Made by a program: the position numbers and the translations under genes
The notes under the pieces: generated by a model
The model's input: the letters and a program-made list of their open reading frames with translations, nothing else
Told to the model about the DNA's origin: nothing
The model's database searches: none
Shown here: piece by piece, positions 25,324 through 29,093 of the stretch
How the letters are laid out: each line of letters opens with the position of its first letter
How positions within the stretch are numbered: position 1 is the first letter of the stretch
From: a virus
Reading direction: 5' to 3' (one strand)
Virus record (IMG/VR): IMGVR_UViG_3300043543_000377
Span: 1 to 29,093 of that record
Length of the DNA stretch: 29,093 bases

Positions 25324-25674
25324 ATGCCAGTCGTCGTCCGCCAGAGCGTTCTCGATGCCAACGCCCTGTCCCAGTCCACTTTCGTGAATGCCACGGCGGC
25401 AGGGGATACGCAGGTCGTCGCAGCTCAGCCGGGCCTTCGCATTGCCCTGCTCGGGGCCATCATCGTCGCCGACGCAGCCGTCAAGCTTCACTTCCGCTCC
25501 GAGACGACGCCCATTACGGCAACCTGGTCTTTTGCCGCGAACGGCGGGTATTCATTCCCGGCCAGCGACAAGCCCATTGCGGTGACTGCCACCGGGCAGG
25601 CCCTCAACGTCAATCTAAGTGCAGCCGTCCCCGGCGGCGTCGGGGTTCAGGTCATCTACGCGGTGATCCCGTGA
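25324..25674 (+). CDS. Small beta-domain protein, decoration-like
   Basis: 116 residues preceded by AGAAGGAGATAACCG, a strong ribosome site. Beta strands alternate with small residues (GLRIALLGAIIVADAAVKLHFRSETTPITATWSFAANGGYSFPASDKPIAVTATGQALNVNLSAAVPGGVGVQVIY). The ATGQALNVNLSAA element is common in phage decoration or surface domains (from memory). If it is a virion protein, it lies outside the late operon on the opposite strand. Confidence 0.6.
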   Translation: MPVVVRQSVLDANALSQSTFVNATAAGDTQVVAAQPGLRIALLGAIIVADAAVKLHFRSETTPITATWSFAANGGYSFPASDKPIAVTATGQALNVNLSAAVPGGVGVQVIYAVIP

Positions 25675-25916
25675 CCGTGTTTCCCGTGCTCGGACGCCTG
25701 GAGGACTGGACGCCACGCCGAGTCCTTCAGGTCATCATGCGGATAGTGGAGTCGTGGATCGGCGTGGGGATCGGCGCGGGGGTGGCGCTCATGGGCTGGC
25801 CGATCTGGTTCGCGTTCCTGGTCGGCCCCCTAGCCGAGTTCCTCGTGTACGAGTTCTTTCTGGAGCCCGTCGGGCTCGCCGGGCACTACTGGGAACGGGA
25901 GCCACGGACTGATTAG
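25671..25916 (+). CDS. Membrane protein, 81 residues
   Basis: GTG at 25671 overlaps the previous stop (GTGA). The chain has RRVLQVIMRIVESWIGVGIGAGVALMG (amphipathic then hydrophobic) and PIWFAFLVGPLAEFLVYEFFL, two likely membrane segments, then an acidic tail WEREPRTD. Its last 87 bases overlap the methyltransferase reading frame on the opposite strand. Function unknown. Confidence 0.65.
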   Translation: MTVFPVLGRLEDWTPRRVLQVIMRIVESWIGVGIGAGVALMGWPIWFAFLVGPLAEFLVYEFFLEPVGLAGHYWEREPRTD

Positions 25917-26777
25917 GGCTGCTGATAGGAGCTCTTGAATCGCTAGAGCTGCTTGGGCCGGGGCGACTGCGTTCCCAAGGGCGCGAAGTCGGTCCACCCG
26001 ACGGGCAGCCCCATCAACCACTCGACGAACCGAGGGTTCAAGCGTGGCCGGGGCGAGATGGGGCCACCGGGCGAGGATAGTGGCCCAACGATCCCGCTCC
26101 TCGGGGCCTGGCGGCCAAGCAGGGAGTTCGTCGGCGCCTTCCGGCTCGGGCCTGATCCGTCCTTCCAGTCTCGGGCGGTCGGGGTCGCCCACTTCTTGGC
26201 CACACCCGTCAGCTTGAGCACGGGTCGGTCGTGGTTCCCTTGACTGTAGCAGTAGCCCGATCCGCTTGCGTCGTCGGCAATCGGCGTCGGCCACGACGAA
26301 GAGGCGCTGCCGGCGGTGCGGCGCGCCGACTTCAGCCGCCATAAACAGTCCCGCCTGAGTCCAGTAGCCCAGCGCTTGTAGCTCGGGCAGGACGACATGG
26401 AAGAAATATGGCAGCGCCCCGGGCACATTCTCCAGAATGACAATTGAGGGTCTGGATTCATCAATGACTCGCCTGACATCGGGCCAGAGGTTTCTCGGGT
26501 CGGCCGGTCCCCTGCGTTTCCCAGCGATTGAGAATGGCTGGCACGGGAAGCCCGCAGCCACGCAATCCACGACGCCACACCACTGTCTGGCGTCGAAGGT
26601 CCGGAGGTCTCCCCAGATGGGAGCCCGATCAAGGACTCCATCCTCCATCCTTGCGAGGAGGATACGTTGACAGAACGAGTCGATCTCGACATAACACACC
26701 GTCCTTGCTGACGGGATTGCGCGCTTGATCCCGAGGTCCAGACCTCCGATTCCAGAGCAGAGTGAGAGAAGATACAC
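25830..26777 (-). CDS. C5 cytosine DNA methyltransferase
   Basis: 315-residue methyltransferase that adds a methyl group to carbon 5 of cytosine using S-adenosylmethionine, probably to protect phage DNA. Motifs in order: SLCSGIGGLDLGI (motif I, residues 5-17), EID (II, 31-33), GFPCQPFS with catalytic Cys79 (IV), ILENVPG with ENV (VI, 114-120), GAPHRRQRLF (VIII, 151-160) and RVDRLRALGNAVAPAQAALAI (IX/X, 260-280). The region between VIII and IX is short and Pro/Arg-rich, a small target-recognition part. Its 3' third is also open in a +1 frame with strong protein-like sequence. The 3' end overlaps a convergent gene; the stop is 110 bases past the alternative frame's stop. Confidence 0.88.
   Translation of the reverse strand: MYLLSLCSGIGGLDLGIKRAIPSARTVCYVEIDSFCQRILLARMEDGVLDRAPIWGDLRTFDARQWCGVVDCVAAGFPCQPFSIAGKRRGPADPRNLWPDVRRVIDESRPSIVILENVPGALPYFFHVVLPELQALGYWTQAGLFMAAEVGAPHRRQRLFVVADADCRRRKRIGLLLQSREPRPTRAQADGCGQEVGDPDRPRLEGRIRPEPEGADELPAWPPGPEERDRWATILARWPHLAPATLEPSVRRVVDGAARRVDRLRALGNAVAPAQAALAIQELLSAALISPWLPFPVVPGEPDGLQKELVHEELG
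25930..25950. terminator. Short hairpin between convergent genes
   Basis: AGCTCT (25930-25935) and AGAGCT (25945-25950) with a 9-base loop, just past the plus-block stop (25916) and at the alternative methyltransferase stop. Only a 6-bp stem and no T-run, so a weak bidirectional terminator candidate. Confidence 0.25.
25943..26293 (-). other. Second coding-like frame inside the methyltransferase 3' end
   Basis: In the +1 frame relative to the methyltransferase, 117 codons from WPTPIADDASGSG to the stop at 25943 read like a recognised C-terminal type of phage methyltransferases. That type has WPTP/WATPTARDWKDG repeats and a LNPRFVEWLMGLPVGWTD end (recollection). Many codon third positions in this frame are G/C. 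It has no good start of its own, so it would be reached by frameshift after motif VIII or be a relic of an alternative C-terminus. Confidence 0.45.
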
Positions 26778-26779
26778 CC

Positions 26780-27262
26780 TCAGCCCCGCAGGAACTCGTG
26801 CCGGCCGATCACGACCGTCACCTTGGCCGGGTCATACCAGGAGGGGAGTGACCCGCCCCTGATCCTCAGGGTCAGGGGCCGGTTGAGATAGAACGTGGCC
26901 CCCCCCGCCGGGTCCGCCCGCAGAGCCCAGAACGCACTCGCCGCTGCACGCCACGCAGGCTCCAAGGAGGCGTCCTGCGCCGCCGCTAGCCTAGCCTCGG
27001 CCCGCTGGCGGTAGTCGTCGTTCCAGCAACTGAAGACCTCGAACGGCCGCTGATCTCCCCACGCCCGTCGGTCAGGCCCGAGGATGACGGTGTGGACGTC
27101 TGTGAGCCGCCAGAGCCGGAGACGGTTCATCACGACCCAGCCGACGGCGAGCTGCCCCTCCTCCGGCTCCCCCTCGGCCTCCAGGAAGATCGTGGCCGTC
27201 AGGAGGGTCAGCTCGTCCCAGTCACCGGGGTCAGTAACGACGAGGAAGCGTGGGACTCGCAT
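26780..27262 (-). CDS. SleB/CwlJ-type cell-wall hydrolase (endolysin)
   Basis: 160 residues. LLTATIFLEAEGEPEEGQLAVGWVVMNRL (20-48) is the diagnostic start of the SleB/CwlJ hydrolase family, with Glu28 in the place of the catalytic Glu. FEVFSCWND (74-82), AAASAFWAL and ADPAGGATFYLNR are the later family blocks, ending VVIGRHEFLRG. It lacks an obvious signal peptide, so it needs a holin to reach peptidoglycan. It starts inside the end of the previous gene (55-base overlap) and its stop is 2 bases before the methyltransferase ATG. As the only peptidoglycan-hydrolase candidate seen, it is probably the lysin, though it sits far from the holin-like gene. Confidence 0.82.
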   Translation of the reverse strand: MRVPRFLVVTDPGDWDELTLLTATIFLEAEGEPEEGQLAVGWVVMNRLRLWRLTDVHTVILGPDRRAWGDQRPFEVFSCWNDDYRQRAEARLAAAQDASLEPAWRAAASAFWALRADPAGGATFYLNRPLTLRIRGGSLPSWYDPAKVTVVIGRHEFLRG

Positions 27263-27774
27263 CGAGCTGCCTTCAGGATGTCGGCTAACGTCCGTCTCTC
27301 ACCGATGACCACTAATGTGGTGTACCCGGGATAGTGCCACGAGCGATCCGGAAGGACCGCCCAGGTGATGCGACGTTGGCGGCTCGAGACAGAGGTACAC
27401 CACAGTTCCATATCGACCGGGCGGGGATCGTCCGGTTCCTCGCCCCACTCGTACGGCTCGGACGTGAGCACGAACTGCTCGGTCGGCCTCCGGCGGTACC
27501 ACCAGCGATGATGGTCCAGCCAACGGCTGACCGACCGGCCATATCTCACACCCGGATGCAGCCCCTTGGTGAAGAGCCGCCACTCGAACTCCTCATCGCC
27601 CACCGTGCCGAGACATTGACCCTCAAGAAGTCCCACCAGACACATGTGCGTCAGCTCCCGCCACCCTTGGTCGAGCCACCATCGGAGACGGTCCGTCGCC
27701 TGCTGTCTCAGCCGCTTCCCGGATAGGCGACGGACGACCTCACCAATGGTCTCGTCATCTGTGTAGGTCTTCAT
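27208..27774 (-). CDS. Hypothetical Trp/Arg-rich protein
   Basis: 188 residues from ATG 27774 (ATGA overlap with the helicase stop). It starts MKTYTDDETIGEVVRRLSGKRLRQQATDRLRWWLDQGW, a helical part. GLLEGQCLGTVGDEEFEWRLFTKGLHPG and many Trp/Tyr residues follow (SVSRWLDHHRWWYRRRP, EPYEWGEEPDDPRPVDMELWCTSVSSRQRR). No recognised motif. Position next to the helicase suggests a replication role, which is not shown by sequence. Its last 55 bases are shared with the hydrolase start. Confidence 0.65.
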   Translation of the reverse strand: MKTYTDDETIGEVVRRLSGKRLRQQATDRLRWWLDQGWRELTHMCLVGLLEGQCLGTVGDEEFEWRLFTKGLHPGVRYGRSVSRWLDHHRWWYRRRPTEQFVLTSEPYEWGEEPDDPRPVDMELWCTSVSSRQRRITWAVLPDRSWHYPGYTTLVVIGERRTLADILKAARCESHASSSLLTPVTGTS

Positions 27775-29093
27775 CCTTGGCCCCCTTCCAGGCAGGTCTC
27801 ACACCAGCCAGCCCCCTGGGTCTCGATACCGCAGATCTGGCATCGCGTGGTCCCCGACCCCTCGTGCCATTCTGGCACACCAGCCTCCTCCCGAAGGCCA
27901 GCAGTAGCCTCTGGCGAAGATGTTACGGATCTACCCGTCATCTGATCCGTAACATCCGTAACATCAGCGATTTCATTGACGTTTTTGGCCCACGCGACAT
28001 CCGTAACGCCGTCCCCGCTGCCTGCGCGCATCTCACTGATTTCATTGACTTGTAACGGTGTTACGGATCTTGGGACCTGTAGATCCGTAACACACTCCTC
28101 TACACCCCCTCCCTGTACGATTTTGACACTTTTCGACCCCTCTCCTGTGCCATTCTGGCACTGACCGCTGGCAAGGTACCGGCTCCAGGCATCCTGAAGA
28201 TCGGCCGCTGAGTACCCCTTCGCCAGCTTGTCAGCAAAGCGCAGTGTCCGGGGCCGGACCTCGAAGGTGGCCAGCAACCTAGCCAGGTCCCGGGCGGTCA
28301 TGGGCCTGCCCCGGTGCAGGGTCGCCCAGGGCCGATCCTCCAGCTCCACCAGCCGTTGGACCAGCGTGACGCTGGGCAACTGCTCATACGCCTCGGCAGC
28401 AAAGATCTCCCGGAGGTCCCGCAGCAGCTCGATGGGCAACACCTCCTCATCGGCCTCGCCCCCGCTCAGCTGGATGGCCACTCGCCGGGCTGTCTCCGGC
28501 CAGTGCCCACCCGCCACATCGGCGATGGCGATCAGCGGCCGCCAGTTGTCCTGAGCGCGGTCGTTCAGCGCCTCCGGCAGTGGCGGGTCCCCGTCCCGCT
28601 GAGCCTCCAGGTCCTGCCAGTGGTCCTGGACCCAGCGCATGGCGCACTGACGGATCGGCTCAAGCTCGCCATGGATCTTGGCGCGCCGGAGCCGCTCGAT
28701 GACCTCGGCTGGCGCGCGGCGCCGGAGGCGCACGGTGATACTGCGGTCGGCTAGGGTATCCGGAAGCCGGCCGATCATGCCGATCGCCTTGGCACACCAC
28801 GTCCGAAACGCGCGGAGCTGATGGTCCTCACCCACGCAGCGGATGACCTTGGCGTTGTTGCGCGTCGTGCTGGCGTTCAGGATGGCCCTCAGCTCCTCGG
28901 CGCGCTCGTTCTTCCCGCCCGAGAAGATGGTGTCGGCTTCGTCGATCAAGAACGTCGGCTGGCTCTGATGGGACGCCCGGTAGATCGCTGGTGCGGTCAT
29001 GTCCAGCGTATTCTGTGGTCGGCGGACCAACGCATCCAGCACATCCAGCGTTCGGGTTTTCCCGCAGCGATGGACCGGAGAGAGTACCGCCAG
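27771..29093 (-). CDS. DUF3631-type helicase/primase, 5' end missing
   Basis: 440 residues visible; the start lies beyond 29093. The first residues read LAVLSPVHRCGKTRTLDVL, a Walker A-like GKT motif. FLIDEADTIFSG with Asp-Glu (Walker B) and LRAILNASTTRNNAKVIRCVG...RTWCAKAIGMIGRLPDTLADRSITVRLRRR match the DUF3631 region found in phage and plasmid replication helicase/primase proteins. It probably unwinds DNA at phage origins; a primase domain would be in the missing part. The C-terminus has a linker with VTD/VNEI repeats and a final zinc ribbon (CQIC...CETC). The linker DNA carries two palindromes and an ATCCGTAAC cluster. Confidence 0.8.
   Translation of the reverse strand: MAVLSPVHRCGKTRTLDVLDALVRRPQNTLDMTAPAIYRASHQSQPTFLIDEADTIFSGGKNERAEELRAILNASTTRNNAKVIRCVGEDHQLRAFRTWCAKAIGMIGRLPDTLADRSITVRLRRRAPAEVIERLRRAKIHGELEPIRQCAMRWVQDHWQDLEAQRDGDPPLPEALNDRAQDNWRPLIAIADVAGGHWPETARRVAIQLSGGEADEEVLPIELLRDLREIFAAEAYEQLPSVTLVQRLVELEDRPWATLHRGRPMTARDLARLLATFEVRPRTLRFADKLAKGYSAADLQDAWSRYLASGQCQNGTGEGSKSVKIVQGGGVEECVTDLQVPRSVTPLQVNEISEMRAGSGDGVTDVAWAKNVNEIADVTDVTDQMTGRSVTSSPEATAGLREEAGVPEWHEGSGTTRCQICGIETQGAGWCETCLEGGQG
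27864..27878. promoter_or_regulatory. 15-bp palindromic operator candidate, copy 2
   Basis: GTGCCA-TTC-TGGCAC inside the helicase gene, identical in all 15 bases to copy 3. On the minus strand it is read in frame as VPEWH. It flanks the ATCCGTAAC cluster on its left. Confidence 0.6.
27922..28089. repeat. Cluster of six ATCCGTAAC repeats (iteron-like)
   Basis: The 9-mer ATCCGTAAC occurs on the plus strand at 27945, 27954, 27999 and 28081, and inverted (GTTACGGAT) at 27922 and 28058. Two copies are exactly adjacent (27945-27962). A second element, GATTTCATTGAC, appears twice (near 27968 and 28036). In the helicase these encode VTD and VNEI peptide repeats, so both protein and DNA explanations are possible. 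The density suggests an origin-like protein-binding array. Confidence 0.55.
28147..28161. promoter_or_regulatory. 15-bp palindromic operator candidate, copy 3
   Basis: GTGCCA-TTC-TGGCAC inside the helicase gene on the right of the repeat cluster. On the minus strand it falls in a different reading frame from copy 2 (here it contributes CQNGT), so the shared 15 bases are not explained by shared protein sequence. Confidence 0.6.

Follow-up and report, generated by a model that had tools for sequence, protein, structure and literature searches.

The window analysed here is the whole 29,093-base stretch of an IMG/VR phage record, with matches to a terminase, a portal and a major head protein, and its minus strand carries a C5 cytosine DNA methyltransferase gene that lies open in two overlapping frames, designated A and B (Table 1). 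Directly before the methyltransferase is a gene for a cell-wall hydrolase (26780–27262, minus; PF07486, E=7e-12), with a DUF3631 protein further upstream (27771–29042, minus; E=2e-49), and a 116-amino-acid open reading frame (ORF) without a Pfam match adjoins it on the plus strand (25324–25674).

Table 1 Features of the two-frame methyltransferase gene, in positions of the window
Feature	Positions	Strand	Remarks
Frame A: catalytic (alpha-like) C5 cytosine methyltransferase	25830..26777	minus	315 aa, GTG start
Frame B: nested +1 open frame; putative second (beta-like) subunit	25943..26776	minus	stop codon at 25943 end
Candidate B coding sequence, ATG 26641, 232 aa	25943..26641	minus	cctcctcgcAAGGAtggagg-ATG; presumed start
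Alternative candidate B start, ATG 26692, 249 aa		minus	
Candidate Shine–Dalgarno (SD) sequence AAGGA	26648..26652	minus	6 nt before ATG 26641
Motif IV (PCQPFS)	26529..26546	minus	frame A; translation
Target-recognition region (WPTPIADD...WATPTARDWKDG...NSLLGR)	26043..26291	minus	probably coding in B; linker in A
Motif IX (LNPRFVEWLMGLPVGWTD)	25988..26041	minus	frame B
Motif X (RALGNAVAP)	25959..25985	minus	frame A

Frame A matches PF00145 (E=4e-33, the match being confined to residues 3–163) and phrog_363 (E=1e-61). It contains motifs I, IV (PCQ), VI (ENV), VIII and X of C5 cytosine DNA methyltransferases, and thus motifs I–VIII and X without a canonical motif IX. Residues P78 and C79 of motif IV are invariant among 43 relatives, while in motif X G268 is invariant in the A frames of relatives and N269, V271 and P273 are nearly so. 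In an AF2 model of A, motifs I–VIII and the motif X helix are folded with high confidence, and the model aligns with M.HhaI (2i9k) at Z 22.4 with 202/327 residues aligned. Residues 180–258, which occupy the place of the recognition domain in other enzymes, mostly have pLDDT <60, except for a helix at 228–237, and this stretch is predicted to be a largely disordered linker.

The preliminary description of this DNA had reported two coding frames at the 3' end of the gene, and both minus-strand readings are as it described them: A ends in ...LEPSVRRVVDGAARRVDRLRALGNAVAPAQ... and the +1 frame reads WPTPIADD...WATPTARDWKDG...LNPRFVEWLMGLPVGWTDFAPLGTQSPRPKQL up to its stop codon. The overlap is real but larger than claimed, because B stays open along the entire gene (from 26776 down to the stop at 25943) and spans nearly all of A. 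Searched separately, as had been proposed, each frame returned homologues, those of B through phrog_1008 (PHROG 1008, E=5e-21), which matches B residues 51–181 and the LNPRFVEWLMG stretch and thereby includes the part facing motifs IV–VIII. Whole B matched 53 phage records by tblastn, whereas its C terminus alone matched none; there was no convincing match of B in Pfam, and the B profile gave only chance matches among PDB sequences. An AF2 model of B alone has a mean pLDDT of 58 and found no match at a Z of at least 2 in the structure library; such a poor fold would fit a protein that folds with a partner, though it proves nothing.

Selection on the two frames

A scan of viral contigs using B as the query yielded 239 relatives. 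For a sample chosen independently of B, the motif IV pattern of A selected 597 stretches encoding a relative, and in the best 80 of these by A similarity a B ORF was matched by the B profile in 80/80, at GC contents from 0.32 to 0.71. Some loci seemed to have B without A, an arrangement that was rejected when Hidden Markov Models (HMMs) found A in every one of them, with a GYPCQ variant of the motif.

Stop codons in the +1 frame were compared with synonymous codon shuffles in which the amino acids and codon usage of A were held fixed over the full A span, using the 66 of the best 80 loci with an uninterrupted A and counting up to motif IX. These A-selected relatives contain 44 stops against 345 expected and, in the part facing motifs IV–VIII on the same strand, a single stop against 124 expected; the window's own gene has 0 against 2.9. 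No deficit was seen in the +2 frame of the 66 relatives (964 versus 948 expected) or in the +1 frame of 340 neighbouring ORFs (3,684 versus 3,634 expected). With both controls clean, the deficit in B indicates that selection keeps this frame open.

Long spurious ORFs are frequent in high-GC genes, and the +1 frame might be a by-product of GC content and of the conservation of A, or a fossil of frame-switch evolution, the latter being one of the options in the preliminary description. We regard this as next to impossible, since it is contradicted by the codon shuffles, the +2 frame and the neighbouring ORFs, by the open B of AT-rich members (L150, locus GC 0.32; L165, locus GC 0.35) and by the conservation of B above A in its own region; the selection data rule out the fossil. 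A codon-bias artefact as the source of the open +1 frame was likewise rejected on the neighbouring ORFs. To our knowledge, same-strand overlaps that cover nearly a whole gene and conserve both proteins are rare in prokaryotes.

In the phase relation of the two frames, third codon positions of A are second positions of B, and first positions of A are third positions of B. GC contents at A positions 1/2/3 in 25944–26294 are 0.85/0.61/0.62; the third positions of B are thus the GC-richest, in agreement with the preliminary description. Differences at A positions 1/2/3 were counted in 32 independent pairs, giving 330/193/683 in motifs I–IV and 308/157/554 in motifs IV–VIII, a first-position-dominated 687/297/335 in the recognition region, 114/39/46 in motif IX and a third-position-dominated 62/35/173 in motif X. 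Between motifs IV–VIII and the recognition region the position pattern differs with a Fisher p=7e-43. This substitution phase points to motifs I–VIII and X being coded mainly in A, and the recognition region and motif IX mainly in B.

Compared with 130 relatives, the window has identities over motifs I–VIII of 0.49 in A and 0.31 in B, and over the recognition region and motif IX of 0.45 in B and 0.35 in A, with B higher in 124/130. Taken alone, the pair that it forms with its nearest relative (L001, d=0.295) has 21/11/21 differences at A positions 1/2/3 of the recognition region, with as many at first as at third positions. The same pattern as in the 32 pairs is found in a second, divergent set comprising Escherichia coli prophages, epsilon15, KpV2811 and Salmonella phage W5_chr3, where KpV2811 and W5_chr3 differ at 31/3/4 A positions in the recognition region.

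Conservation is seen in both frames and B stays open, with selection working through A on motifs I–VIII and X, and through B on the recognition region and motif IX. The preliminary description had held that substitutions preserving one frame only would refute its proposal; A is preserved in the former segments and B in the latter. The dual coding that it had proposed is thereby supported, B being conserved, depleted of stops and, between motifs VIII and X, under stronger purifying selection than A.

Motif IX and a recognition domain are expected in the same chain of a C5 methyltransferase, and here they are absent from A and lie in B. The relevant B stretch was aligned by hhalign, at a probability of 96.8 and E=2.5e-10, with methyltransferases in which a single frame holds both IX and X, whereas the control comparison with the A profile gave a probability of 0.1. 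In relatives with both motifs in one frame the homologous stretch directly precedes motif X, and HMMER placed it against motif IX of M.HhaI, though weakly (-0.2 bits). On these alignments B appears to hold the motif IX homologue missing from A, and the predicted motif order of the two frames together is that of a canonical C5 methyltransferase. With neither motif IX nor a confidently folded recognition domain in A, and with motif IX and a constrained recognition region in B, the two readings complement each other rather than giving one protein a choice of ends.

Motif partition and the start of B among relatives

The recognition region lies in B across every class analysed, while motifs IX and X shift between frames. 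The window and most loci have the recognition region and motif IX in B. At L164 and L166, B carries the recognition region only (14/4/1 and 10/1/0 differences at A positions 1/2/3), with IX and X in A (3/1/13), and in L122, L113 and the L048 group A stops after motif VIII, the recognition region, IX and X all being in B. Three loci, L035, L093 and L094, have many stops in the A linker and an intact B; there, motif X is a separate third ORF in the A frame with its own candidate start (gaggaggaaaaatc-ATG in L093), and the last 30 codons of L035 and L094, with 1/0/8 differences, indicate conservation of X in the A frame. They look like three-ORF enzymes, with motifs I–VIII in the first frame, the recognition region and IX in +1, and X back in the first frame, a layout that would make little sense if the pieces did not cooperate as separate chains. 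We found no convincing natural single-frame gene joining motifs I–VIII to a W-x-TP recognition region and motif IX; L057 and L058 look frameshifted.

This partition bears on two other roles for B. As a distinct ORF that is at times annotated alone, and whose partnership with A we infer, B could be a separate protein, such as a regulator or an anti-restriction factor, overlapping a methyltransferase complete in A. That is very improbable given a motif IX present in B and missing from A, the movement of IX and X between frames in different relatives and the lack of a confidently folded recognition domain in A. Alternatively, A alone might be the active methyltransferase and B an accessory subunit changing or adding specificity, as would suit the majority of relatives, in which no stop breaks A across the recognition region and motif X is retained in it; the stop-filled A linker beside an intact B in L035, L093 and L094, together with the first-position-dominated substitutions of the recognition region, makes this highly improbable.

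In L001, L013, L035, L071 and L078, B contains several copies of the W-x-TP unit, recalling the multi-specific phage methyltransferases that have several recognition modules. Between motif VIII and the recognition region, L002 and L017/L018 carry (TC)n and (CA)n dinucleotide repeats, in which a slip would change the frame after motif VIII; in L017/L018 the frames are switched past the repeat, which could be phase variation or sequencing error. L024 (3259–3261) and L039 (3286–3288) each have one B stop, placed before motif IX and the greater part of the recognition region, beside an intact A; B may start later there, the allele may be inactive or the sequence may contain an error.

The start proposed for B in the window, ATG 26641, is a candidate and a guess, as the start position varies across the family. 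An SD–ATG pair just upstream of motif IV occurs in 14 loci against 5.6 expected, the loci being partly non-independent. In epsilon15 and BcepC6B, AAAGGAG stands 8 nt from an ATG within the DERSIEDV-coding stretch, and this ATG opens B; the SD–ATG of B in E. coli prophages is identical or a near variant, and B also has its own SD–ATG in the unrelated loci L165, L179, L188, L157, L122 and L113. A B-frame TGA separates SD and ATG in L198 (E. coli), a B-frame stop lies just ahead of B's ATG in L086, and W5_chr3 has a stop immediately before the annotated B start, which excludes an upstream translation start in these cases. Most likely, judging from these contexts, B is started from its own ribosome-binding site inside A, without frameshifting.

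The preliminary description had offered programmed +1 frameshifting after motif VIII as another option, with a slippery site to be looked for near 26293. A shift there would fuse the N terminus of A to the C terminus of B and, once a further shift had restored the A frame for motif X, would give the canonical motif order in one line. We consider it very improbable: B is open far upstream of any such shift, and its near freedom from stops opposite motifs IV–VIII would be unneeded for a shift at VIII; B has its own SD and ATG in several relatives, with B-frame stops just ahead in L198 and L086; the A stops of split relatives are scattered, without a common position, slip or stop context; and motif X requires the second shift. 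The window itself has no slip-prone run at the motif VIII exit.

A probable split methyltransferase and its known counterparts

We consider it highly probable, on the sequence evidence above, that the locus is one C5-cytosine DNA methyltransferase encoded as two overlapping genes, a catalytic A and a nested +1 B. Frame A would give the catalytic subunit, with motifs I–VIII, a largely disordered linker and motif X, and the nested gene, if translated as we propose, a second subunit that bears motif IX along with the target-recognition region. Joined together, the two chains would form an enzyme whose motifs stand in the usual order and which may methylate phage DNA, probably for escape from host restriction.

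The small chain of M.EcoHK31I is reportedly encoded within the gene of the large one, in a different reading frame, as Lee, Kam and Shaw are said to have described in 1995, and the putative small chain of the window is nested in a large gene in a like manner. M.EcoHK31I has motifs I–VIII and X on its larger subunit and IX on the smaller polypeptide, with the predicted recognition domain assigned to the large subunit; in M.AquI the split lies within the recognition region (PMC3404938). The window resembles M.EcoHK31I in that A has motifs I–VIII and X without IX, which B carries. It differs in being a phage gene, for a putative enzyme, and in a recognition region that the substitution pattern assigns to B, the placement in the larger chain of M.EcoHK31I being itself a prediction. 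If the recognition region of M.EcoHK31I also proved to be in the small chain, the window locus would simply be a new member of that kind. M.AquI is likewise a two-chain enzyme, and L122, L113 and the L048 group have nearly its division (I–VIII against recognition region, IX and X), but in the window motif X stays in A and the two frames overlap along almost all of the gene. Single-chain M.HhaI and M.HaeIII have the motif order that the two frames of the window give combined, whereas the window enzyme is encoded in two frames and probably in two chains.

PHROG 1008, labelled 'DNA methyltransferase', has a profile that matches B over 47–175 and in the motif IX stretch, yet B lacks catalytic motifs I–VIII, and the end of the profile (288–321) matches motif X, which in the window is in frame A. 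The ShiLan element, an out-of-frame HNH gene inside phage methylases (PMC11855218), offers another example of a phage DNA methylase gene that conceals a further protein; that protein is a homing endonuclease inserted in the third frame, whereas the second frame here appears to be part of the methyltransferase. In the open-access literature, which leaves many journals uncovered, we found no description of the two-frame arrangement in phages. The kind of enzyme is thus already known; what seems new is the location of the recognition region in the nested frame, together with the shifting partition and the wide occurrence.

Breadth and annotation

Bacterial genome contigs yielded no relative when scanned with the window's A, and 28 loci, all from metagenome-assembled genomes (MAGs) of many groups, when scanned with B of phage C72C1; these include Bacteroidetes (GC 0.36) and Nitrospirales (GC 0.34). 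The two-frame arrangement is accordingly found in phages and in bacterial MAGs, across many phyla and GC contents from 0.32 to 0.71. We lean towards regarding these loci as a large and as yet undescribed lineage of C5 methyltransferases from phages and bacteria whose recognition module would sit in an independently started nested +1 gene, where W-x-TP units could change or multiply, with mobile motifs IX and X and two or three chains. Were this so, the recognition modules would be free to vary, the catalytic chain reading the same DNA as linker only, and annotation would show one frame or call the gene broken.

Should B prove to be the recognition subunit, many of the proteins annotated as 'DNA cytosine methyltransferases' would be half an enzyme, cloning the annotated frame in codon-optimised form would abolish the other half, and any specificity predicted from the 'recognition region' of A would be meaningless. 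The locus also offers a clean natural case in which two frames share one enzyme and the boundary of constraint is visible per codon.

Public annotation usually shows one of the two proteins. For the E. coli copies examined, RefSeq lists A alone. An E. coli prophage locus (L202, NZ_CP041110.1 1933222–1934391) appears in RefSeq as two incomplete pseudogene pieces, with A and B both open. Four phage records (L086, L204, L205 and L208) have B annotated and A omitted, and B-only annotations bear names such as 'putative Mte8-like protein', 'methyltransferase' and 'hypothetical protein'.
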